Made by a program: the position numbers and the translations under genes. A stretch of DNA of 64,000 nt from Gilvimarinus xylanilyticus. GTDB lineage: Bacteria; Pseudomonadota; Gammaproteobacteria; Pseudomonadales; Cellvibrionaceae. Positions 4,644 through 63,655 of this stretch are shown here, piece by piece. The notes under the pieces are model-generated. The model worked only from the letters and a program-made list of their open reading frames with translations. It searched no databases and had not been told where the DNA came from. Position 1 is the first letter of the stretch; every line of letters begins with the position of its first letter. Where the stretch lies: contig NZ_JAMFTH010000001.1 in the NCBI RefSeq assembly GCF_024195295.1, positions 1,729,428 through 1,793,427 of the forward strand. Direction: 5' to 3'.

Positions 4644-6799
4644 CAGCTCGCTCTCCCGATTCGGCCCTGCTTGAGCGCTTCTACCACTTTTTCTTTGGGG
4701 CCATCAGCGACAATTTTTCCCGCATCCAAAACAATTATGCGATCCACTAAAGTCAGTAATGATGTGCGGTGTGTAATGACCAACATAGTTCGTCCCTGAC
4801 TGTATTCGGCCAGGCGTTTTTTCAAGGACTCTTCGCTGGTATGGTCCATGGCCCCTGAGGGCTCATCCAGCAATAAAATTGACGGATCGTTAACCAGTGC
4901 GCGTGCTACCGCAACACTTTGACGCTGCCCGCCGGACAGTAACGAACCGCGCTCTCCCACCGGCATAGCCAAACCCTGTGGGTGGTTATTGATAAACTCC
5001 CCCAGACCACTGATATTGATCGCCTCCATCAGTCGCTCGTCACTGGCATTAGGGTCACCCATGGTAATATTGTCGCGCAGTGTTCCCAAAAACAAATGGG
5101 TATCTTGCGGGACATAACCGATGTTGTGTCGCAACTGGGCCGGATCGATTTGCCCCTGCTCGATATTGTCGATCAACACACTGCCAGAGGTAGGCGAGTA
5201 AAGCCCGGCAATGATTTTTTCAATCGTGGTTTTCCCTGAACCATTGCGCCCCAAAATGGCAACACGCTCACCCGGTTGCAAAACAAATGACACATCGCGC
5301 AATACGTCGCGCTCATCGTTAGGGTAACGAAAAGACACTTTATTGAACTCAACCCGCCCCTCAATGCTGGGCAGGCTAATCCACTGGGCCTCAGGAGGGC
5401 GCTCAATGGGCTTGTTCATCACCATATCGACACTCTCAAGGGCCGTGGCGGCCTGATGGTACTGCATCATCAGCGCAGCGCTCTGCCCCACCGGCGCCAT
5501 AATCCGTGAAGACAACATATACGCGGCAATCAAACCACCCTGAGTCAGCTCGCCCTCGGTAATGAGATAAACGCCGACGATAATAATAGAGACCGCGACC
5601 AGCTGTTGCGCCCAGAGCGCACCGGATGTGACCGACCCCGAGAGAATGCGCATTTTCGTTGTAGTGCGAGACAGATAGACCGTGGCTCGCTCCCACAAAT
5701 GCTGCATTTTGCCCTCGGCACTTAAAGACTTTAACGATTCCAGGCCATCCAAACTTTCCACCAGTACCGCGTTGCGATAGGCGCTGGCCTCCATACTGGA
5801 CAAAGAAAGCTCGTGCATTTTTGCCTGTACGCTAGCGGCATACAATAGACAGAAGAGAACACCAATGGCAATGGGAACGACAAGCCACCAGGACGTAAGC
5901 AGACCAATGACGAGGGAAAATACGATAACAAAGGGTAAATCGACAAAGGCGATAATTGTGCTTGAGCCGATAAAAGCTCGCACCGACTCAAAGGCCTGCA
6001 GACCTGCTGCAAACGACCCCACCGAGGTCGGCTTTTCGGTCATTCGCATGCCCAATACCCGCGACATAATATTCGCCGACAAGGTGATATCAATCCGGCT
6101 GGCCGCTAAATCCACAAACCAGGCGCGCACCATTTTCATGGCGAAATCTGCACAGAGTACCAATCCCACGCCAGCGGCCAAGACCCACAGGGTTTCAATA
6201 GCAAAGTTGGGCACTACCCGATCGTAAACATTCATCACGAACAAAGGCATTGCCAAAGCAAACAGGTTAATCATAAAAGCGGCGAACAATACATCGCGGT
6301 ACAACTTGCGATGCTCTTTAATCACCGCCCAAAACCAGTGGCCCTGAGGCGTTTTATGAATATCGGCGTTGCGCGATGAGAACTTGACCTTGGGGCGGCA
6401 ATAGATAACTCGCCCGGTGTAGTCAGCCTCAAGCGACTCGATAGATTCTTCCACCGGTGATTGGGTCAGTTCTGGGTACACCACCTGAGCCGTACCTGAC
6501 TCGGCATCCAGCGACAACAATAAGCAGGCCGTATTATTTTCCAACAGTAAAATGGCGGGCAGCAATGCCGTATTGAGCCTATCGAGCGGACGCCCCAGCA
6601 ACTGACAACTCAAACCCGCCCTGGAGGCTGCGCGGGGTAGCAGAGAAGGCGTTAACTGCTCGTGCTGGAGCGGTAATCCCGCCAACAGTGTGGTAGCGGA
6701 AGCATTAATACCATGGGCTTTGGCCAGTGCCACTAAGCAAGCCAAAAGCGGTCCGCCCCGGCCTGAGGCACCCAGGCTTTCGCCTGAAACATCACTCAT
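4643..6799 (-). CDS. Type I secretion ABC exporter (LapB-like, inactive C39 domain)
   Basis: 718 residues in the usual three parts. Residues 1 to about 130 are a C39-peptidase-like domain. The catalytic Cys context (normally DCG) reads GPLLACL, so it is a non-cleaving domain that probably docks substrate, as in LapB and HlyB. Residues about 160-440 form the six-helix ABC membrane domain. The ATPase domain has Walker A GRNGSGKTT near residue 520, signature LLSGGQRQ, Walker B ILLLDEPSGAMD and switch His in ITHR. It should power export of the repeat adhesin without cutting a leader. It lies 60 bases after the TolC-like gene and overlaps the fusion-protein gene, so all belong to one operon. Confidence 0.94.
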   Translation of the reverse strand: MSDVSGESLGASGRGGPLLACLVALAKAHGINASATTLLAGLPLQHEQLTPSLLPRAASRAGLSCQLLGRPLDRLNTALLPAILLLENNTACLLLSLDAESGTAQVVYPELTQSPVEESIESLEADYTGRVIYCRPKVKFSSRNADIHKTPQGHWFWAVIKEHRKLYRDVLFAAFMINLFALAMPLFVMNVYDRVVPNFAIETLWVLAAGVGLVLCADFAMKMVRAWFVDLAASRIDITLSANIMSRVLGMRMTEKPTSVGSFAAGLQAFESVRAFIGSSTIIAFVDLPFVIVFSLVIGLLTSWWLVVPIAIGVLFCLLYAASVQAKMHELSLSSMEASAYRNAVLVESLDGLESLKSLSAEGKMQHLWERATVYLSRTTTKMRILSGSVTSGALWAQQLVAVSIIIVGVYLITEGELTQGGLIAAYMLSSRIMAPVGQSAALMMQYHQAATALESVDMVMNKPIERPPEAQWISLPSIEGRVEFNKVSFRYPNDERDVLRDVSFVLQPGERVAILGRNGSGKTTIEKIIAGLYSPTSGSVLIDNIEQGQIDPAQLRHNIGYVPQDTHLFLGTLRDNITMGDPNASDERLMEAINISGLGEFINNHPQGLAMPVGERGSLLSGGQRQSVAVARALVNDPSILLLDEPSGAMDHTSEESLKKRLAEYSQGRTMLVITHRTSLLTLVDRIIVLDAGKIVADGPKEKVVEALKQGRIGRAS

Positions 6800-6859
6800 A
6801 AACGCGTAAATTCCTTAACGCGCCGCGGAGCATAAGCCGCGGCGCCAATCACAAAAGCT

Positions 6860-8671
6860 TTACTGACCGATAAACCTTACTTCGATTTCCATCAAATCGG
6901 TAGCCGGCTGTATACGACGATCTCCCGGTAAAGGTTGCTTTACTTTTGCGACTTCAATGCCATTGAGCAGCAGATAATCTTTAACCGCCGCCGCGCGGGC
7001 ATTCGCCAAAGATTGATTAACCGCCGATGACGATGGGGACAAACTATAAGACACCCAAGCATCAGATACCGAGCCGCCCACTTGGAAGTCGGCTAAAAAT
7101 TCGTCCAACCGCATTTTGCCCGAATCTGACAAAACACTGCTACCAGACGCAAACAGATCGGCCATCTCCATACTCACCACTTCGGTGGTCAGATTGGCAT
7201 TGTATCCCTCGCTTGGCGAGATAGCCGGGCAAGCAGCAGAAGGTTCCACCGAGATACTGGCCAAGTCTTCGTCCAACTCGCTATTAAGCGGCATGGCTTC
7301 GTCGACAATGTCTAAGCTCTGGAGCAACTCGCCCGTTGACTCTAACACCTCGGCGTAAGCAATGTTTAAATCATGCTCACCGTTAACCAACGCGCGACTG
7401 GATTGAAAGTACTCATTCTCCGCGTCCAGCAAGTCCAACAAGGTACGCTGGCCAATCTGAAACTGCTCGTTATAGGCGGCTCGCACTCGGTTACTGGCAT
7501 CGCGATGTTCGCGCAGTGATACCAGCTGCTCATTCAACTGCACCGTGTCGTTATAGGCAATTTGGGCCGTCTGACGCAGGTTGATACAGGCCTGATCACG
7601 CTGATCTTTCGCCGATGAGACTTCGGCAAGCGAGCGCTTTACCGCCGCGCGATCACTGCCGCCGCGAAACAGGTTGTAGGTAAGAGCCAGCTCTACCGCC
7701 GCTTCATCACCGAAATCGTCCGGGTCATAGCGATCATCGAATACCCCCAGGTTTTGCTCAGTGCCATAACGAGCGCGCAATTCAAGCTTGGGATAGTAGT
7801 TCGAACGCTCAACTGTAACCGCTGACTGGGCCGCCGAGATATTTTTAATCGCCGCATGGAAACCAGGATTACCCTGATAAGCGCTGTAGAGCACCTCTTT
7901 AATCGACGGCGGCAAAGGCTCATCGGTCAGACTGACAGGCACCAGGTATTCTGGAGGCAGTTCGCCCACTAAACGCAGATATTTGGCCGTTACATCATGC
8001 AAATTAGCCGCCTCGGTAATTAAGTTGGATTCGGCTAACGCAACCCGCGCCTGCACCTGGTCCAAGTCGGCGCGACGCCCTACGCCCTGATCGACGCGGT
8101 CTTGAATTTGGGTTTGAACATCCAGATGTTCTTGGTAGTTGGAGCGAGCCAAGTCAAGCAATTTGCGATAGCGCACCAGATGCTCGGCAATGGTAAAAGA
8201 CTCAAGCGCTGTCTCGTTAACAGTATTTAGGAACTCCAGGTATCTCACCTGGCGAGTGTCGTCCAGCTCTGAGACCTGTCCCATGGTGCGAAAACCATTA
8301 AACAACAACTGTGTCACAGAAATTTCGGCGCGATTGGTCGTATAATCGTCTCGGTCGTCATAGTCGCGCTCCATTTTGCCAGTGCCAGCTGACAAATCGA
8401 CCGACGGGAAATACCCCCCCCGAGCAGTGCCAACGTTGTGATCAGCCGCTTGGAAGGAGTGCAACGCTTCCCGAACTACCGGGTTAGTATCCAGCGCCTT
8501 GATAACCGCATCGCGGCTGCTGTAAGGGTTTTCATAGGCGTATGCCAATACCCCATCATAGTCATTAGTTGAAGCCTCTTGAGCCGAAGCCTGTAAAACT
8601 GTAACACTGGCCACAGCGGTACAGAGACAGACAGCAAACGTCCCTTTAAGTCGCGATATAGAAAAGAGCAT
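6860..8671 (-). CDS. TolC-like outer-membrane channel with OmpA-like C-terminal domain (LapE role)
   Basis: 603 residues, longer than normal TolC proteins (about 450). An N-terminal signal peptide ends near ASAQEAS. Residues about 45-450 hold the two repeated TolC/OEP halves, with typical helix motifs such as ALxSFTIAEHLVRYRKLL and GQRTLLDLLDAENEYFQS. The extra ~120 residues at the C-terminus resemble an OmpA-like peptidoglycan-binding fold: a LFASGSSVLSDSGKMRLDEF segment, then an NQSLANARAAAVKDYLLLNG helix. It should be the outer-membrane exit of the adhesin exporter, perhaps tied to the cell wall by the extra domain. A GAGGG ribosome site lies eight bases before the ATG. First gene of the secretion operon. 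Confidence 0.9.
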   Translation of the reverse strand: MLFSISRLKGTFAVCLCTAVASVTVLQASAQEASTNDYDGVLAYAYENPYSSRDAVIKALDTNPVVREALHSFQAADHNVGTARGGYFPSVDLSAGTGKMERDYDDRDDYTTNRAEISVTQLLFNGFRTMGQVSELDDTRQVRYLEFLNTVNETALESFTIAEHLVRYRKLLDLARSNYQEHLDVQTQIQDRVDQGVGRRADLDQVQARVALAESNLITEAANLHDVTAKYLRLVGELPPEYLVPVSLTDEPLPPSIKEVLYSAYQGNPGFHAAIKNISAAQSAVTVERSNYYPKLELRARYGTEQNLGVFDDRYDPDDFGDEAAVELALTYNLFRGGSDRAAVKRSLAEVSSAKDQRDQACINLRQTAQIAYNDTVQLNEQLVSLREHRDASNRVRAAYNEQFQIGQRTLLDLLDAENEYFQSSRALVNGEHDLNIAYAEVLESTGELLQSLDIVDEAMPLNSELDEDLASISVEPSAACPAISPSEGYNANLTTEVVSMEMADLFASGSSVLSDSGKMRLDEFLADFQVGGSVSDAWVSYSLSPSSSAVNQSLANARAAAVKDYLLLNGIEVAKVKQPLPGDRRIQPATDLMEIEVRFIGQ

Positions 8672-55700: not shown

Positions 55701-55865
55701 TACCACCGGGCGATCTACATCGGGCAGCTCGCGCACTTCTACCGCCACCACGGCGGCAATGCCGGCAATCGCAACCAGTAGATTGAGCACCAGCACCAAG
55801 ATGGGCCGGCGAATACTCAGACTCGGCAAATCCTCTTTGTGCAGTTGTTCGTGTTGATCACTCAC
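52740..55865 (-). CDS. RND efflux pump, inner-membrane transporter (MMPL/HAE1-like)
   Basis: 1041 residues from a GTG at 55865 that follows AGAGG and overlaps the adaptor gene by eight bases; a longer ATG frame to 55904 lies in the adaptor. Twelve membrane helices and two large periplasmic loops fit the family. The proton-relay Asp pair is in TGLVVDDAIVVLENI. Unlike the second pump, its N-terminus is extended (SDQHEQLHKEDLPSLSIRRP). Drug or solvent export is likely; the substrate is unknown. No outer-membrane channel gene is adjacent. Confidence 0.92.
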   Translation of the reverse strand: MSDQHEQLHKEDLPSLSIRRPILVLVLNLLVAIAGIAAVVAVEVRELPDVDRPVVSVRGVYPGASPETMDAEVTSIVEGAVARVSGIRNIRSSSEENNMRLHVEFSPDSDLHAAASDVREAVSQVERDLPPDMESLTVVKADPDANPIINLALVSETLDELELTRRAEQDLIPELISIDGVADVVLFGERQKVLRVVMDPIRLASFGLSVGDVADALREAPFDVPSGSFRSGDLELLVRADASAVEEDELRSMIVRGDIRLSDVAQVFFAPEDASSYVRLDGLPVVGLGVVRQSQSNTLDIAERVHKAVARLNTRFTDSTMVVTEDSAKFITGAMKEVLVSLMLTVGIVVVTIWLFIGSLRVTLIPSVAIPVALIGTVAAIWAMGFSLNILTLLALVLATGLVVDDAIVVLENIQRRRHQGLGARAAAVLGTRQVFFAVIATTAVLVSVFVPIAMLPSTAGRLFREFGFVLAFAVAISSFVALSLVPAMAARIVPERSDKPHAIRDRLQAVGGCLAGWYSDSLDAVLRLKWLALVAAALVILGAVMVYHNVDQVLLPEEDRGVIYVDATGPDGTGLEYTERQVAAMEERVQPLLESGEAKQLFSIVGRYDPNRGRVILPLVDWEERERSQQEMMAQLSGPMNEIPGSYVRVRSTNSLDLNGGGGGLEFALVGPDYNSIFTAVEAFVAKIEEQLPGLSQPDINFQPTQPQLAVTIDRRRASDLDIPLDNISTTLRAMVDGYDLVDLSVGDEAIPIILESSGDQINDPGDLVNLFVSTRDGKLLPLSTVVSLSEEAVAAELDRHKQRRAIEVDVDLASGYALQSAVNDLRDLAETELPPGIGLIFLGEAETLDETSQEVMMTYIIALVVVFLVLCAQFESFTSALIVMLTVPFGVAAAIFALLLTGTSINVYSQIGLVMLIGLMAKNGILLVEFADQLRDKGESVIDAVKHAASVRLRPIVMTMMSTVLGGLPLILSTGPGAEARYSIGWVVFGGLGLAAVFTLYLTPVVYLLVARWAKPRAEEGQRLEQELEQARAIPDRGE

Positions 55866-56976
55866 CGGACACCTCTTTTGCGTCGGATTCCGATGCAGAA
55901 GCAACTTCTAATTCGACCACCTCAGCGATCTCTACCGGCTGGCCCTGGCGCACTTTTTGAATCCCTTCAAGCACCACCAGATCGCCTTCCTCCAGTTCCG
56001 TGTCAACCAGCACCCGACCGGCGCGGCGCTGCACAATAGTAGCGATCACCCGCTCGGCTTTGCCGTCAATCACGGCCCACACATAAGAGCCGCGCGCGCC
56101 CCACTGCAGAGAAATTTCGGGCACCAACACAAAGCGATTGCCCTGTAAGGTTAAATCGATACGAAAGCTCATCCCTGGGCGAAGGGCATCATCGGGGTTA
56201 TCGACTTTTGCTCGCACCCGAAAAGTGCGCTCGGTATTGTCCACCCGACTATCAATTTCGATAATCTCCCCCGCTACGGCGACAGCATCGTTACGCCAAG
56301 CCGACAATTCGATGGCCTGACCTGGCTGAATTTGTCCGAGCAAAAGCTCGGGCAAGTTAAAGGTCACTAATAAGCGACTGCGATCATCCAAGGTGGTGAC
56401 GACCGTGGAAGTGTCCACCCAGGCGCCCGGATCAAGATCGGTAAAACCAACATAGCCCGAAAAAGGCGCGCGAATCTCTTGATACTGTAGATCCACCGAC
56501 GCCTGATCAACCGCAATCTCTGCCCGCGCCACCGCACTTTCAGCATCGTCCAAGGTGGACTTGGTAACCGCACCACTGTCTTTGGTTTGCTGGTAGCGAG
56601 TGAGCAAGCGGCGGGCGTCTTCTAGCTCTACTTCCGCGTTGCGCAACGTTAAGCGTTCGTTGCGGCTATCCAGCTCGAGCAGAAGCTGCCCCTTCTCGAC
56701 CCACTGCCCAGGTTGAATGTGAACCTCTTCTACCTGCCCTGAGACTCGGGGACGCACGGATACAGAGCGAAAGGCACGGGAAGTTCCCACGGCTTGAACT
56801 TCCTGCATTTCGGGGGAATAAACCACTTTAGCGGCAATCACCGGCTGAGCGGAGCGTTTAACAGCAGAAGGGGTAACGTCAGAGTCCTGGCAGGCCACCA
56901 CACTAAAGATCATTCCGAGGTAAAGGCTCAAGCGCACGATCAACGCATAGCGACTAGACACAGGCATACTGAACAT
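55858..56976 (-). CDS. RND efflux pump, periplasmic adaptor (lipoprotein)
   Basis: 372 residues. A lipobox SVVAC near residue 29 suggests a lipid-anchored protein. Adaptor landmarks: RVSGQVEEVHIQPGQWVEKG (lipoyl), a short coiled coil with LEDARRLLTRY, and IRAPFSGYVG. A GGAG site is 12 bases before the ATG, with another ATG three codons on. It forms an operon with the pump gene that follows. Confidence 0.9.
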   Translation of the reverse strand: MFSMPVSSRYALIVRLSLYLGMIFSVVACQDSDVTPSAVKRSAQPVIAAKVVYSPEMQEVQAVGTSRAFRSVSVRPRVSGQVEEVHIQPGQWVEKGQLLLELDSRNERLTLRNAEVELEDARRLLTRYQQTKDSGAVTKSTLDDAESAVARAEIAVDQASVDLQYQEIRAPFSGYVGFTDLDPGAWVDTSTVVTTLDDRSRLLVTFNLPELLLGQIQPGQAIELSAWRNDAVAVAGEIIEIDSRVDNTERTFRVRAKVDNPDDALRPGMSFRIDLTLQGNRFVLVPEISLQWGARGSYVWAVIDGKAERVIATIVQRRAGRVLVDTELEEGDLVVLEGIQKVRQGQPVEIAEVVELEVASASESDAKEVSGE

Positions 56977-57062
56977 CTTGTATTTGTTCTCCAGAGCAGA
57001 CTAAAAACGGCTTTCGATTCTAAGGATTGCTTACCCACACTGCAGCAGCAGCTCCGTAAGGA

Positions 57063-57108
57063 ACTGTTAACAGTGAATAGAAGTGAAAAACTCGGGTTGG
57101 TCGACCAA
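57063..57108 (-). promoter_or_regulatory. Two palindromes upstream of the first RND operon
   Basis: ACTGTTAACAGT (57063-57074) and TTGGTCGACCAA (57097-57108) are perfect 12-base palindromes, 34 bases apart from start to start, in the 162-base gap between the two pump operons. They look like repressor operators, but no TetR or MarR gene is in the window. Confidence 0.4.
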
Positions 57109-57138
57109 TTTTCGTATAGGCTCGCCAATTAGCCCGGA

Positions 57139-60100
57139 TCAATTGCTGGGCTCAGCCTCCACAGAAGGTGACGCGACCTGTCCTGACTTAGCCGGCCCGC
57201 CAATACGTTCGCGCAGATGCTGAACGCCGAGATAAAAGACCGGAATCAATAACGGCCCTAAAAATGAAGCAGCCAACATACCGCCAAAGGCCGTGCTACC
57301 CAACGCAATGCGAGACGCGGCCCCGGCGCCCGAAGAAAACATTAACGGCATAACGCCCAACACAAAAGATAACGCCGTCATCAGGACCGCGCGAAAGCGC
57401 AAATGCGCCGCGGTAAGTGCCGCATCAAAAATGCTCTTGCCTTCGCGCCTTTGTTCCATGGCAAATTCCACAATCAAAATCGCGGTTTTAGCGGACATAG
57501 CAATCAACAACACCAACCCTATTTGCGCGTAAATATTATTGTCCAACCCTACTAACTTTAAGGTCGCGAGCGCTCCGAAAAGAGAAATAGGCACCGACAA
57601 CAACACCGCCACGGGGATGGTCCAGCTTTCGTACAGTGCTACCAGAAATAAATACACAAACAACAGCGCCAACGACATCAAGATGGGGGCTAAATTTCCC
57701 GCCTCCAACTCCTGACGCGACTGCCCCGCCCACTCGTATATAAACCCTTCGGGCAATTGTTCAGCCTGCTGGGTCATGGCGGCAATCGCCTGCCCCGAAC
57801 TCAATCCGGGCGCGGCAGAACCACTGATTTTGGCGGAGCGATACAAATTAAAGTGATTAATTGTGGTGGGCCCCAAAATCGGCTCGATTGAGACCAAGGT
57901 CATTAAAGGTACCATTTCGCCTTTGGCATTGCGCACAAAGTAGTGTTGTAAATCATCGGGGCTCAGGCGAAATTCGCTGTCGGCCTGAATCATGACTCGG
58001 TAGGTACGTGAAAATTGGTTAAAATCGTTGATATAGAGCGAGCCCAAATTTGCTTGCAGTGTCATAAACACATCGCTAATCGCCACCCCCTGAGTTTTCG
58101 CCTTTAAGCGGTCCACTTCGACAAAAAACTGGGGAACATTCGCGCGATACGTGGAATAAACCTGACTCAGTTCAGGCGAGCTATTGGCCTGGTAAATTAG
58201 AGCGCCCATGGCCTGGGCCAATTCTGCCGGCGTTCGTCCCTGCATGTCCTGCAGCTGGAATTCAAAACCACTGGAAACCCCCAGACCGGGAATCGCCGGA
58301 AGGTTAAAAATCATCGCCTGGGCTTCAGACACTTGCCACAACTGCCCCTGCAAACGCTGCTGGATGGCCTCTACGCTAAGATCGTCAGACGTACGCTTGT
58401 CCCAGTCGTCCAGTACCGCAATTGCAAAGCCGGTATTAGACCCCACCCCACTTTGGATACTAAAGCCCGCGACGGTAATAACGTCTACCACCCCCGGGTC
58501 TTTACGAACGATATCGGTTACTTTCTCCATCACTTTTTCCGAGCGGGCGCTGGAGGCGGCATCGGGCAGCTGCACATCGACAAACAGATACCCCTGATCC
58601 TCCGAGGGCACAAACCCCGTGGGCACACTGGTAAACAGCCAACCCAAGGCCACCACAATAGTCATCAGGGCCAAACCGGCACGTCCGGCGCGCCGTAAAA
58701 TAGCCCCGACCGTGCGCTGATAAATCGCAATGGTTTTGTTTAATCCGCGCTCGAAAGGCCGCAGCCAGCCAATAGACTGAGAATCCTTTTTTAACAGAAC
58801 CGCGCACAACGCCGGACTGAGGGTTAGCGCATTAATTGAAGAAATAACCACCGCGCAGGAAATGGTCACCGCGAACTGTTTATACAAAACCCCGGTCATG
58901 CCCGGCATAAACCCCACGGGTACAAACACCGCCAGAAGCACTAGGGTGGTGGCGATAACCGGCCCGGTCACCTGCTTCATGCTTTTAACCGTGGCCTCTT
59001 GGATTGACAGGTCACCTTCTTTGAGAATGCGCTCGGTGTTTTCGATCACGATAATGGCATCGTCCACCACCACACCAATCGCCAACACCAAGCCGAACAA
59101 GGTAATGGTGTTAATCGAAAAACCCAGCGCCAGCATACAGGCGAAGGTACCGATCAAGGAAACGGGAATAGCCACCGTGGGCACAATGGTGGCCCGCCAA
59201 TTCTGCAAGAAAGCGAATACCACCAGTACTACAAGCACTACGGCCTGCAACAAGGTTACCACCACTTCGTGGATCGAGCGCTCGATAAACCGCGTTGAAT
59301 CATAGAGTACACTGAACTCTAAAGAATCGGGCATGGTCTGCGCCAACTCTTCCATCTTGGCATTCACTGCCTGCGCCACCTGGGTAGCATTGGCCTCGGG
59401 CAGCTGGTAAATCACCACAAACCCTGTGGCCTTATTATTCAGCTTGGCTTTAATGCCGTAGGTTTTAGAGCCCAACTCCAGACGCGCCACATCGCGCATG
59501 CGCACCATGGCGCCTTGCGCATCGGCGCGCAGTACGATATTGCCAAACTCTTCAGTTTCAATCAGCCGGCCCTGAGCCTGAATACTGTACTCAAAGGGCT
59601 GAGAGTCGGGAATGGGTGCCTGACCAAACTTACCCGCCGCGACAATCACATTCTGTTCTTGCAAGGCTGCGGCAACATCGGACACCGTTATATTGAGCGC
59701 GCTCATGCGCTCCGGGTTTAACCATATCCGCATGGCATAGGCTTTATCGCCCATGACATTCACATTAGAGACACCCGGCACCCGGGATAAGGGCTCGCGC
59801 AAAAAATTGGTGGCGTAATTACTTAAGTACAAGTCATCGATATGCGGGTGGCCTTCTTTGGCCAAAAGGTTAATACCCATCAACATATCGCTCGCCTGCT
59901 TGCGAACGTTAATGCCCTGGCGCCTTACCTCTTCGGGCAAAAATGGCTCAGCCAGTGACACCCGGTTTTGTACATTCACCTGGGCCATATCAATATCGGT
60001 GCCCGTGGCGAAGGTAATGGTTATATTGGCCGAGCCGTTATTCGAGGCGGAGGATTCAATATAAATCATATCCTCAACGCCGTTAATCTGCTCCTCCAGT

Positions 60101-60294
60101 GGCCTTAGTACCGAGTCTTCGACAACCTGGGCACTGGCACCCGGGTAAACGGCGTTCACCTGAACCTTGGGTGGCTTGATATCCGGGTACATGTTGACCG
60201 GCAGGTTGGCAATGGCCAGTAACCCCACCAGGGTAATCACAATAGAGATGACAAACGCAAACTTGGGACGATAGATAAACGTTTTGCTGATCAT
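57139..60294 (-). CDS. RND efflux pump, AcrB/HAE1 family
   Basis: 1051 residues, the AcrB size. It starts [20 protein letters not shown] and has the proton-relay Asp pair in [19 protein letters not shown] (about residue 410), [15 protein letters not shown], and the C-terminal repeat of the same helices. It should be a trimeric drug/proton antiporter in the inner membrane. It follows its adaptor gene by 11 bases. The tripartite channel must be encoded elsewhere, or the TolC-like gene of region 1 could serve, which is less likely given its OmpA tail. Confidence 0.94.
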
Positions 60295-60305
60295 GGCCGA
60301 ATCCC

Positions 60306-61499
60306 TTACTGACCGTTTTCAAGTGGCGCTATAGCGCCGGTGGTCGGATCTACCGCCCCCGCTATAGGCTTTACCTCTATCCCTACTCTTACTTTTTGTA
60401 AGCCGTCGATAATAATGCGATCGCCCGAGCTTAACCCCGCATCGACCGCCCACATGGGACCGATTCGCCGCCCCATTTCCACTACTTTTTGCGCAACAGT
60501 GTTGCCGTCATCGACCACTAATACGGTGTATCCCTCTTGGGTTGATTGCACCGCTGACTGGGGTATGACCACCTTATTCACTTTTTCGCGCCCCTCGACC
60601 AACAAGGTGACATACATACCAGGCACCACTAAACCATCGGGGTTGGGAAACTGAGCCCGCAAATTCACCGCCCCCATGGTGGGATCGATCTGGGTATCGG
60701 CAAAGGTTAAACTTCCCTCCTGAGCATAGACCTCATTGTTGGGCAGACGCAGAGAGATATCCAGTGCGGGCGCGGCACTGGCGGCACCCTCGCGTTGACG
60801 CTTTTGTAAATACGAAATATAGGCGCTCTCTTCGAGCTGAAAGTTCACGTAGATTGGATCGGCAGCCGACAACTCCACCAAGGTTCCACTGGAAGGCCCC
60901 ACCACTGTTCCCACGTTGTAGTGGGTTTTACCCACCAACCCCGCAAAAGGTGCAGCAATTTTGGTGTAACCCAAGTTGATGCGGGCGGCCGCCAGCTGTG
61001 ACTCGGCCGCTTTTACCGCTGATTGTGCCTGACTGGCAGCCGCTTTAAGTTTTTCCAGATCCTGAGCGCTCAAAAAACCTTCGGGCGCCAACTGTTGGCC
61101 CCGTTCAAACTCACCGGTCGTGCGCTCTACTTCACTTCGGGCGCGTTCAAGCTCGGCCTCGGCGCCCTGCACAGTGGCCACATAGGGTGCATCGTCAATG
61201 GTATAAAGTATTTGCCCCTCGGACACCATGGCCCCTTCGGTGAAGCCTCGGCGGGTCAGCTCACCTTCGACTCGGGCGGTAATTTGAACTGTGCGATGGG
61301 CTTGGGTACGTCCCACGAACTCGCGATAACTGCCCACGGGTTTTTCAGTCACCGTATAAACAGTCACTGCCGGCGGCGGCGCCGACGGAATTGACGCATT
61401 ATCAGACTTAGAGCATCCACCCAGCCCCGCCAATAACAGTGCAATAGCCGCGATATACCCTCGATACGACATCCCCTCCGGTGCCAACAACTTTTTCAT
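60306..61499 (-). CDS. RND efflux pump, AcrA-like adaptor lipoprotein
   Basis: 397 residues. Lipobox LGGC near residue 28 follows the signal [33 protein letters not shown], a hairpin near residues 110-165 and [19 protein letters not shown] are AcrA-type motifs. The ATG has AGGGA upstream. First gene of the second pump operon. Confidence 0.92.
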
Positions 61500-61552: not shown

Positions 61553-61579
61553 ATTATAGCTGGTTAAGCGTTGCCTCAA
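61553..61579 (-). promoter_or_regulatory. Candidate promoter of the second RND operon
   Basis: On minus, a perfect TATAAT (61558-61553) with TTGAGG 15 bases upstream (61579-61574), which is a short spacer. It overlaps the end of dgkA. Confidence 0.4.
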
Positions 61580-61950
61580 CTGCCGACAAAGCGGTGATAG
61601 GCGACAATCCCCCAGACCACCACCAGCAAAATTAAGCTTAGTAGCACGACCGCCGAGGCGATATCCTTCGCTCGCCCGGACAGTTCATGCATTTCCGACC
61701 CGGTGCGATCCACCACCGCCTCGACCGCGGAATTAACCAGCTCGGCAATCAAAACCCAGAATACACTGGAAATGAGCAGTGCCAGCTCGATATGGTTTTG
61801 CGCCAATAAAAAAGCGCCGGGAATCAATACCAGCGCCATGGTGACCTCTTGACGAAAGGCCGCTTCAAACTTCCAGGCCGCACCCAACCCCTGTACTGAA
61901 TAACCGAACGCATGAATCAATCGCGTCAGGCCCCGCTTACCTGGCTTCAT
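61576..61950 (-). CDS. dgkA: Diacylglycerol kinase
   Basis: 124 residues, three membrane helices. The family core EAAFRQEVTMALVLIPGAFLL and ELVNSAVEAVVDRTG (with the metal-binding Glu and Asn) is intact. It phosphorylates diacylglycerol to phosphatidic acid in the inner membrane. The site TGGAG before its ATG lies within the PhoB-like repeats at 61951-61990, so PhoB bound there could block its expression. Divergent from the PAP2 gene, whose product should do the reverse reaction. Confidence 0.94.
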   Translation of the reverse strand: MKPGKRGLTRLIHAFGYSVQGLGAAWKFEAAFRQEVTMALVLIPGAFLLAQNHIELALLISSVFWVLIAELVNSAVEAVVDRTGSEMHELSGRAKDIASAVVLLSLILLVVVWGIVAYHRFVGS

Positions 61951-62006
61951 TTGTCACAACTCCATCAAATATCTGTCACATAAGCGTCATGCAGCGGTGG
62001 TATCAC
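61951..62006 (+). promoter_or_regulatory. Double Pho box and promoter of the PAP2-glycosyltransferase operon
   Basis: Four 7-base PhoB half-sites lie in exact 11-base steps: TTGTCAC (61951), CCATCAA (61962, weak), CTGTCAC (61973) and GCGTCAT (61984). The last pair forms CTGTCAC-ATAA-GCGTCAT, close to the Pho box CTGTCAT-N4-CTGTCAT. Exactly 10 bases after it is TATCAC (62001-62006), a fair -10 at the spacing usual for PhoB-activated promoters, with no separate -35. The orientation is towards the PAP2 gene. Confidence 0.7.
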
Positions 62007-62045
62007 TAAGCCGTCCCCACCGGTAACGCACAAACGGGTGAAACT

Positions 62046-62582
62046 ATGAATGCTTTTTTGCAAAGAGTCCACCAGCTAGACACCCTGGCTTTTATGTGGC
62101 TCCACGTCACCAAGCAGTTTCCCTACCGGCGCACGGTACGCTGGATTTCGCGCTGCGGCGATGGCCCTTTGTATATTGCGATAGCGCTGGGACTGATCGC
62201 CGCTGACATTCCCCACAGCGATACATTTTTGTTTATGGGGCTCACCTGTTACACGTTGGATGTAGGCCTGTATTTGGTGTTAAAAAACGCCATCAAACGG
62301 GATCGCCCCGCCGTTAAAATTGACGTATTTGAAAGCTGGATTACTCCCTCGGATCAATTCAGCTTCCCCTCGGGACACACCGCCGCCGCCTTTGTGTTCG
62401 CCTACTTGGTGTTGCTGTTTTTCCCCGCCTTTGCGTTGGCCGCCTATGTCATGGCGTGTTTAATTGGCAGCTCGCGGGTGCTACTCGGGGTGCACTACCC
62501 CACCGATATTCTGGCCGGTGCCGCCCTGGGTACAGGCTGCGCTATGCTCGGTAGCGTGGCTTACGCAGGATTATGGGGATGA
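62046..62582 (+). CDS. PAP2-family membrane phosphatase
   Basis: 178 residues with GGGTGA before the ATG. The three catalytic motifs are present: KNAIKRDRP, then FPSGHTAAAF and SRVLLGVHYPTD. About five membrane helices place the active site at the periplasmic face. Substrates in this family include phosphatidic acid, phosphatidylglycerol phosphate and undecaprenyl pyrophosphate. The setting beside dgkA and a lipid-type glycosyltransferase favours phosphatidic acid. It overlaps the next gene by four bases (ATGA). Confidence 0.88.
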   Translation: MNAFLQRVHQLDTLAFMWLHVTKQFPYRRTVRWISRCGDGPLYIAIALGLIAADIPHSDTFLFMGLTCYTLDVGLYLVLKNAIKRDRPAVKIDVFESWITPSDQFSFPSGHTAAAFVFAYLVLLFFPAFALAAYVMACLIGSSRVLLGVHYPTDILAGAALGTGCAMLGSVAYAGLWG

Positions 62583-63655
62583 AAATACTCTACGGTGTAC
62601 AAGGCACCGGCAATGGTCACCTTACCCGGGCGCGCTCGATGGCAAAGGCCCTGGCGCCGCACAATGTAACGGTAGACTGGTTAGTTTCCGGACGCCCCCG
62701 CGAGGCGTTATTTGATATGGACGCCTTCGGCGATTTTCGCTGTTTTAAAGGCCTGACTTTGCAAACCTTTAAGGGCAAGGTCAATATGGGAAAGACCATC
62801 GTTAAAAGCGATTTGTTACAACTTAAGCGCGACATCAACGCTCTGGATTTGAGCCATTACGACCTGGTGGTAAGTGACTTTGAGCCGGTCTCGGCTTGGG
62901 CGGCGCGCAAACAGGGCGTTCGCTCTATCGGCATCTCCCATCAAAATGCGTTTTTATACCCGATCCCCAAGCGCGCCAATAATATTTTTACCGACCTTTT
63001 TATGCGCTGGTTTGCCCCCACCGATGTCCCGGTGGGAACTCACTGGCACCACTTTGATCAACCCTTGGTGCCTCCCATTGTCGAGCCCTCGAGCCACCCG
63101 GTAACGCTTCGGGAAAAGCACATTTTAGTGTATCTACCCTTTGCCGAGCTGGATGATATTCTCGCGCTAATTAAACCTTTTTTGGGTTACCAGTTTTACG
63201 TGTACCACAAAGTCGCTCAGGCCGAGACCCGGGGGCACATTCACCTGTGCCCATTTTCTCGGGAGGGATTTCAGAACCATTTGCACAGCTGCGAGGGTGT
63301 TATCTCCAGCGCCGGGTTTGAGCTGCCAAGCGAAGCTATCAGTCTGGGTAAAAAGCTATTGGTGGAACCGGTGGCGGGGCAAATGGAGCAACAATCTAAT
63401 GCCGTAGCGCTGCAATCACTGGGCTACGCCAGCACCGCGATGCGTCTAAGCGCGGCAAGTATCGCCCGCTGGTTGGAATTACCCGGATCTCAAGCCATTC
63501 ATTATCCCAACGTTGCGGCGGCGCTGGCACAATGGTTCGTGGAAGATAAGGCGGAAAATCTGACAACATTGAGCGAGAAATTGTGGCGCCAAGTGCCTGG
63601 GGTCAGCGCACCGGAGCAAGCGCAGGAATATCAAGCCAGCCTAAGCCGCTGCTGA
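62579..63655 (+). CDS. MurG/MGDG-synthase-like glycosyltransferase (MJ1255 family)
   Basis: 358 residues from the ATG at 62579, which overlaps the PAP2 stop; another ATG two codons earlier is possible. It is a GT-B fold: KILYGVQGTGNGHLTRARSM has the glycine-rich acceptor loop of the GT28 type, and CEGVISSAGFELPSEAISLG with GQMEQQSNAVAL is the nucleotide-sugar site. GT28 includes MurG and the plant/bacterial galactolipid synthases. The acceptor is not proven; diacylglycerol is inferred from the operon. It overlaps the rseC-like gene by 25 bases at the 3' end. Confidence 0.82.
   Translation: MKILYGVQGTGNGHLTRARSMAKALAPHNVTVDWLVSGRPREALFDMDAFGDFRCFKGLTLQTFKGKVNMGKTIVKSDLLQLKRDINALDLSHYDLVVSDFEPVSAWAARKQGVRSIGISHQNAFLYPIPKRANNIFTDLFMRWFAPTDVPVGTHWHHFDQPLVPPIVEPSSHPVTLREKHILVYLPFAELDDILALIKPFLGYQFYVYHKVAQAETRGHIHLCPFSREGFQNHLHSCEGVISSAGFELPSEAISLGKKLLVEPVAGQMEQQSNAVALQSLGYASTAMRLSAASIARWLELPGSQAIHYPNVAAALAQWFVEDKAENLTTLSEKLWRQVPGVSAPEQAQEYQASLSRC

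Follow-up and report, generated by a model that had tools for sequence, protein, structure and literature searches.

What does a two-gene operon pairing a membrane phosphatase with a glycosyltransferase (GT) do in Gilvimarinus xylanilyticus, and what controls it? The operon lies in the 64-kb stretch of DNA that we analyzed (hereafter the window; contig NZ_JAMFTH010000001.1, positions 1,729,428 to 1,793,427), which is part of a genome of 3.93 Mb in 13 contigs (G000 among our genome labels). It consists of a gene for a PAP2 phosphatase followed by a gene for a GT of the MJ1255/VC2487 family, and it diverges from dgkA, the sole match of its kind in the genome, which encodes the kinase that converts diacylglycerol (DAG) to phosphatidic acid (PA) (Table 1). 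A sequence-only reading of the window had proposed that these three genes form a membrane-remodelling switch for phosphate starvation. We consider that the best overall explanation, and a probable one, is a membrane-remodelling operon activated by PhoB when phosphate is short, and what is new in it is PhoB-controlled lipid remodelling with a dedicated PAP2 and a GT family without an assigned function.

The first evidence is in the promoter. We scored half-sites with weights taken from the E. coli Pho consensus and not derived from any of the sequences scored here; the consensus is quoted as CTGTCATNNNNCTGTCAT in a passage of PMC8528852. The four half-sites at 61951-61990, which stand in 11-base register, together score 23.0 of a maximum of 28 (the quad score), the highest on either strand of the window, where the runner-up has 18.7 once shifted registers of the same site are set aside. 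Assuming independent bases, 0.04 such sites are expected in a whole genome; our genome-wide statements on Pho sites come from pattern searches and from this independent-base expectation. A PhoB promoter is recognized by tandem CTGTCAT-type half-sites at 11-base spacing, above chance, and by a -10 element ten bases past the last of them, the spacing also found in the E. coli pstS promoter. Both features are present here, as the sequence-only reading had said, and the ten-base spacing recurs in relatives. The hexamer itself, TATCAC, keeps the TA and lacks the T at its end, as in the closest relatives. A search at 61850-62150 revealed no canonical sigma-70 promoter, which fits a promoter that depends on an activator.

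Is this promoter conserved? Our set of relatives comprised 58 genomes (own included), of which 35 hold the GT. PAP2 adjacency was read in 31 of these 35 and was present in all 31; PAP2 precedes the GT in all 30 loci read (own included), and at 23 of those 30 the quad beat 200 of 200 shuffles. A second set comprised 36 loci from named genomes, 19 with PAP2 beside the GT and 17 without, and among 13 loci read at the class level only the 7 with PAP2 were scored. The 26 PAP2-GT loci so obtained (19 named and 7 class-level) include Pleionea, Kangiellaceae, Saccharospirillum, Pseudidiomarina, Haliea and Photobacterium, and 18 of them beat all shuffles. Removal of four that repeat genomes of the first set leaves 52 non-redundant promoters, not counting an Aeromonas record that provides a further PAP2-GT promoter with a quad of 22.0. 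The promoter is conserved: scores of at least 19 were obtained for 43 of the 52 and of at least 20 for 38. A score of 20 was reached by 12 of the 19 promoters of the named loci versus 1 of 448,280 other positions there.

The strongest single result concerns the -10 element, which played no part in the scoring of promoters. In an alignment of the 43 promoters on their half-sites alone (a sample that includes close congeners and is not fully independent), T, A and T occupy bases 11, 12 and 16 past the last half-site in 81%, 91% and 77% of cases. TANNNT stands at exactly ten bases in 27 of the 43, whereas none of the 39 other spacings that we tried has it in more than two of them.

At the 17 GT loci without PAP2, most of them from Rheinheimera and Alishewanella, no such Pho site precedes the GT, the best scores there being 14.7-18.3. 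In a tree of 76 GTs they form one clade (100/100) and so count as one event and not as 17 controls. As the clade is placed, with weak support (97/63 and 86/48), inside the PAP2-linked GTs, the simplest reading would be a single, joint loss of PAP2 and the Pho box. GT function in this clade (among L067-L096 of our loci) may differ; in L069, for example, the GT at 6001-7017 is preceded by what we take to be a thymidine kinase gene. A separate oddity is L042 (G108:C12), where PAP2 is followed by a GT in two frames, with no Pho quad at the locus and no strong PlcP in the genome, and which seems to be either a copy in decay or the result of an error in sequencing.

Does the genome contain a Pho regulon into which the operon would fit? 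Matches to two half-sites with at most one mismatch number 23, versus 11 for a reversed control, and include sites before PstS, PhoD, Ppk (polyphosphate kinase), a porin, a TonB receptor and the ornithine-lipid synthase OlsF; some have no clear gene downstream. The Pho boxes of PstS, PhoD, Ppk, the porin and OlsF fit PhoB control of PAP2-GT. A four-site search on TCA gave seven matches at the one-mismatch level, two of them being one place in shifted register, and at that level the reversed control gave six; only the three exact matches are used here, and these belong to PAP2-GT, OlsF and a TonB-receptor gene. The gene that faces this receptor is presumably of the endonuclease/exonuclease/phosphatase type, and the two are possibly a pair for uptake of phosphate esters. 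Among nine metallophosphoesterase genes in the genome just one has a Pho quad (22.7), and its product is the PlcP orthologue, with 41% identity over 268 residues to a Sinorhizobium meliloti protein encoded near acyl-homoserine-lactone synthase and LuxR genes, a position beside the autoinducer synthase that we take to be that of PlcP (SMc00171). The Pho box is kept before PlcP relatives, 24 of 30 (own included) scoring at least 20. The genome would then have a PlcP and an OlsF that seem to share their control with PAP2-GT. With a promoter conserved in many genera and fitting Pho-boxed genes in the same genome, PhoB control of the operon, as originally claimed, is very likely. Pho-box-like pairs also stand before an EAL/CBS/GGDEF protein (L099) and a GGDEF protein (L111) of this genome, a hint of a link between phosphate and cyclic di-GMP.

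The sequence-only reading had regarded the operon as a different route from that of PlcP. This must be rewritten, because the genome itself holds PlcP and OlsF under apparently the same control, and because PlcP and the GT occur together in relatives. With PlcP counted at E <1e-60, the 58 genomes comprise 26 with both, 9 with the GT only, 4 with PlcP only and 19 with neither (one-sided p 2.3e-5); within the family of the window the numbers are 23, 8, 0 and 6 (p 0.0013), and with the window's genus counted once p is 0.0003. At the class level, PlcP is found in six of seven genomes with PAP2-GT, the exception being G108 with its split GT. Although plcP is mostly apart from the GT in the window's family, the two are neighbors in four genomes. 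In G305 the order is plcP-PAP2-GT, with a box before plcP and another before PAP2. In G379 (L229, G379:C1:811500-819500) GDPD, a gene of unknown function, plcP, patatin, PAP2, the GT and a DAGK_cat lipid kinase follow each other, with a box before PAP2; the product of the gene of unknown function (386 residues; 5729-6886, minus strand) had no Pfam match. In G413 the GT comes directly after plcP, as in plcP-agt, and the contig ends within it. In G052 olsF diverges from PAP2-GT, which faces plcP, and a further glycosyltransferase lies beyond plcP. A homologue of OlsF (46% identity) follows plcP in G037. Linkage with plcP, olsF, patatin, GDPD and the DAGK_cat kinase, each in single genomes, supports the membrane-remodelling role that had been suggested. 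The difference from the PlcP-Agt system would lie in the glycosyltransferase and in the added PAP2.

What, then, has become of Agt? The GT of the window has no sequence relation to two plcP-adjacent GTs of Agt type, which are Agt by position and not by tested activity (best BLASTP E 5.4), and a query with one such protein, the plcP-adjacent GT of Sphingomonas, gave no match in the G. xylanilyticus genome at E 0.001. Matches below 1e-30 occur in 5 of the 58 genomes, none of which has the GT; they are present in three of the four genomes with PlcP only and in none of the 26 with PlcP and the GT. At 30 plcP loci Agt is a neighbor once (G057 only). We considered whether Agt and the GT strictly exclude each other and rejected this, as G193 and G298 hold both. 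It seems that the GT usually stands in for Agt and sometimes stands beside it, and in the proposed pathway it most likely takes the place of Agt. Relatives of the plcP-adjacent GT of Thiodictyon, 32-33% identical to it, are present in G010 and G036, at loci without plcP.

Does the PhoB site also act on dgkA? One reading is that a single PhoB site is a bidirectional switch for DAG, activating PAP2-GT and, because it covers the upstream and ribosome-binding region of dgkA, repressing that gene directly. The geometry stood up well: dgkA and PAP2 diverge from starts 95 bases apart, the dgkA ATG (minus strand) begins at 61950, so that the PhoB sites fall 1 to 40 bases ahead of it, and, since its GGAG is the complement of CTCC at 61960-61963, they do cover the ribosome-binding region, as had been claimed. 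The dgkA-PAP2 spacing is also constant, at ~95-100 bases, in all eight genomes of the genus. However, proximity by itself can yield such an overlap, the spacing widens to ~113-253 bases in the four next genera, so that the overlap is not kept, two of the eight genus genomes (L007, L010) have a pair in place of the four-site register, and no dgkA promoter was located at 61850-62150. dgkA stands divergently beside PAP2-GT at 12 of 30 loci (own included) and in Pleionea, an adjacency that we saw only within a single clade of the GT tree, Pleionea being a member of it. Our dgkA sample comprised 48 matches, 30 of them with loci, and 6 of these were PAP2-linked; among the 24 loci elsewhere 23 are without a Pho box (at most 18.4, both strands) and the single one to reach 20, on the other strand, is L122. 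dgkA would thus be a side element that is adjacent in one clade. From the geometry it is possible that PhoB lowers dgkA expression, and a two-way switch operated through direct repression is a conceivable arrangement against which, on present evidence, we lean.

What might PAP2 and the GT act on? PAP2 scores 81.9 bits with PF01569 (curated cut-off 27.2), and the three catalytic motifs of its superfamily, KxxxxxxRP, PSGH and SRxxxxxHxxxD, are all complete, with K80, R87, P88, P108-H111, S143, R144, H150 and D154 invariant in 20 sequences. Its model (predicted local distance difference test, pLDDT, 90) has Bacillus subtilis PgpB/YodM and Aquifex LpxE as nearest folds, and with matches to both the substrate is not chosen by fold. 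With the NCBIfam equivalog model for LpxE it scores 14.5 bits where the cut-off is 177. The GT scores 241.2 bits with TIGR00661 (cut-off 195.9), and PF13528 is also assigned. Its model (pLDDT 91) has a GT-B fold, with enzymes that use uridine diphosphate (UDP)-sugars among the nearest folds. The earlier label of GT28-like was apt for the fold, for which MurG gives Z 21.2, a root-mean-square deviation of 3.6 and 287 aligned positions; the family assigned is MJ1255/VC2487. Among solved structures a search with the GT sequence alone found no match and one with its profile found a single weak match, again to MurG (E 0.06). The GT has no membrane-spanning stretch (longest helix 17 residues; peak 19-residue hydropathy 1.27, versus 2.47 in PAP2) and should act in the cytoplasm. 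DAG is proposed as its acceptor because of the linkage to PlcP and the regulon.

Two other sets of substrates have to be weighed. In the first, PAP2 would be a lipid A phosphatase of LpxE type and the GT would swap the lost phosphate for a sugar, so that phosphate would be saved from lipopolysaccharide and not from phospholipids. Aquifex LpxE is the best sequence match of PAP2 among solved structures (profile E 2.1e-18) and one of its two best folds (template modelling score 0.78/0.84), and lipid A remodelling would be expected under the same Pho control. Yet it is B. subtilis YodM/PgpB, a phosphatidylglycerophosphate phosphatase, that tops the fold matches by E-value, LpxE works at the periplasmic side whereas the GT should be cytoplasmic, and the linkage with plcP in four genomes points to DAG; we regard this scheme as unlikely. 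Similarly improbable is an economy of undecaprenyl phosphate, with PAP2 as an undecaprenyl-diphosphate phosphatase and the GT adding sugar to a glycan, polyprenyl-linked or of the envelope, that is produced when phosphate is low. It would account for the NCBIfam matches of PAP2 to undecaprenyl-diphosphatase SepP and PRK11837 and for the likeness of the GT to MurG in fold and profile, but the two NCBIfam matches are far under their cut-offs (48.2 of 250 and 37.2 of 229 bits) and the Pfam-named neighbors in the four plcP-linked clusters are lipid-turnover genes, the further glycosyltransferase of G052 notwithstanding. Finally, that the Pho box serves dgkA only, or is a chance match, with PAP2-GT constitutive, deserves hardly any credence: the region is shared by divergent promoters, but site orientation and -10 spacing point to PAP2, and the persistence of the box before PAP2 where dgkA sits elsewhere already contradicts it.

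A number of observations weigh against a PhoB-controlled operon for DAG glycosylation. Nine of the 52 PAP2-linked promoters score below 19, one of them being that of the split GT of L042; some low scorers (L007, L010, L011, L012) retain a moderate half-site pair. Of the 23 genomic matches to two half-sites, several precede genes without an evident phosphate role, such as that for a penicillinase-repressor-type protein. The tests of co-occurrence between PlcP and the GT ignore the tree, and strong PlcP is absent from 9 of the 35 GT genomes, so that PlcP is not obligatory; the clusters of G413 and G052 are without a good Pho quad. The Agt counts depend on one query over 58 genomes and on a cut-off of E 1e-30 chosen after the gap had been seen, and the class-level genomes G193 and G298 carry Agt-like genes beside plcP in addition to PAP2-GT. 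A sterol glucosyltransferase (Z 22.0) and UDP-N-acetylglucosamine 2-epimerases (Z 22.1) score the GT fold as high as MurG does, so no acceptor can be read from the fold, which gives the GT-B class only. Lastly, the low-phosphate lipidome of Vibrio cholerae is reported to consist to ~90% of ornithine lipid, with no glycolipid mentioned in passages of PMC13157583, the lipids having been identified from lists of phospholipids and ornithine lipids.

If membrane remodelling is indeed what the operon serves, how would it proceed? In low phosphate, phosphorylated PhoB would bind the half-sites at 61951-61990 and bring RNA polymerase to the -10 at 62001, so that PAP2 and the GT are expressed. In parallel it would activate two genes at other places in the genome, plcP and olsF. 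Phospholipids would be cut by PlcP to give DAG, and PAP2 would dephosphorylate PA, or a similar lipid phosphate, to give more DAG together with free phosphate. The GT would then transfer a sugar from a nucleotide-sugar onto DAG, yielding a phosphorus-free glycolipid beside the ornithine lipids of OlsF; that the GT makes glycosyl-DAG from the DAG of PlcP and PAP2 is what we infer as likely. In the Gilvimarinus clade, the same PhoB site on the upstream and ribosome-binding region of dgkA may lower its expression and so keep DAG from going back to PA. A bolder proposition, which taken as a whole is rather doubtful, is that the MJ1255/VC2487 enzymes, widespread among gammaproteobacteria of the sea, are one more and unrelated family of glycosyltransferases for DAG under phosphate stress, which together with PAP2 can run without PlcP by diverting PA, the precursor of all phospholipids, and that the PhoB site of the Gilvimarinus clade is a two-way valve between DAG and PA, with PAP2-GT on and dgkA off.

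Table 1. Features of the dgkA/PAP2-GT locus in the window and other genes with Pho boxes in the genome.
Feature	Position	Strand	Remarks
dgkA, diacylglycerol kinase (DAG to PA)	61576-61950	-	PF01219, 111 bits, E 2.5e-32; divergent from operon
PhoB half-sites, four in 11-base register (two Pho boxes)	61951-61990	+	Top quad score of window; kept in relatives
Half-site 1, TTGTCAC	61951-61957	+	
Shine-Dalgarno of dgkA, GGAG	61960-61963	-	Complement of CTCC; inside span of half-sites 1-2; read from sequence
Half-site 2, CCATCAA	61962-61968	+	
Half-site 3, CTGTCAC	61973-61979	+	
Half-site 4, GCGTCAT	61984-61990	+	
-10 element, TATCAC	62001-62006	+	10 bases past last half-site, following TGG
PAP2 membrane phosphatase, probable lipid-phosphate phosphatase	62046-62582	+	PF01569, 82 bits
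GT, MJ1255/VC2487-family GT-B glycosyltransferase, proposed DAG glycosyltransferase	62573-63655	+	TIGR00661, 241 bits
OlsF ornithine-lipid synthase	L112:1607-3016 (G000:C4)		Pho quad 23.7; NF052615 711.7 bits (cut-off 620); gene ends at locus edge
PlcP orthologue	L160:5706-6563 (G000:C7)		Four-half-site Pho box, quad 22.7; not co-operonic with a GT
Third exact four-site Pho match	L164 (G000:C1:1854609)		Between TonB-receptor gene with carboxypeptidase-regulatory domain and presumed endonuclease/exonuclease/phosphatase gene

The PAP2 stop codon overlaps the start of the GT, for which 62579 is more likely than 62573, since most homologues start at the equivalent of (M/V)KILYGVQ; the overlap would then be the four bases ATGA. 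The closest named relatives of the GT are from Gilvimarinus species (66-70%). Beside the dgkA locus, at 55858-61499, one gene for a resistance-nodulation-division pump was seen by eye between two genes for periplasmic adaptors.

Over much of the ocean growth is held back by a shortage of phosphate, to which the replacement of phospholipids by sugar lipids is a main bacterial answer. The known bacterial routes are recognized in a genome when PlcP is accompanied by Agt or BtaAB. If glycolipids are what the operon makes, a glycolipid enzyme does exist in many marine gammaproteobacteria that would be credited with PlcP and with no such enzyme, a protein family without an assigned function gains a testable one, and PAP2 would show a second entry into DAG, at the level of PA. 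Among the top-ranked open-access papers (most subscription papers lie outside this literature), we found none that deals with a phosphate operon of PAP2 and a GT or with what the MJ1255/VC2487 family does, and nothing usable on glycolipids in descriptions of Gilvimarinus species.

How does the operon compare with systems that are known? The GT is a member of MJ1255/VC2487 (TIGR00661) by score, and the family name assigns no substrate; VC2487 itself appears in an excerpt of PMC11856585 as a putative glycosyltransferase with a chromatin immunoprecipitation peak for ChiS upstream. PAP2 shares fold and catalytic motifs with B. subtilis PgpB/YodM and Aquifex LpxE, to which it is only 29% and 22% identical in structural alignment. 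In V. cholerae, OlsF (VC0489) performs ornithine-lipid synthesis under PhoB control, according to the relevant part of PMC12186959. The likeness is a PhoB-controlled phosphorus-free lipid, and G. xylanilyticus also has a Pho-boxed OlsF, but the operon would be a parallel arm with another product. PlcP-Agt remodelling under phosphate stress is known from Agrobacterium, SAR11 and Pseudomonas aeruginosa (passages of PMC4796936 and PMC8528852). The two systems are alike in their PhoB-type boxes, in a PlcP that makes DAG and in a glycosyltransferase, here a predicted one, for a phosphorus-free glycolipid. They differ in that the GT shows no BLAST relation to the two plcP-adjacent ones of Agt type, in the dedicated PAP2 and in the position of plcP, mostly apart from the GT in the window's family; plcP with its Pho box is present in the G. 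xylanilyticus genome, whereas for agt no match was found at E 0.001 with the Sphingomonas query. PlcP can pair with more than one kind of GT, as is already evident from types 3 and 5 of plcP neighborhoods, where plcP stands beside other glycosyltransferases, one of which has been shown to make di- and tri-glycosyl-DAG; MJ1255/VC2487 is not named in the passage of PMC4796936 that describes them.

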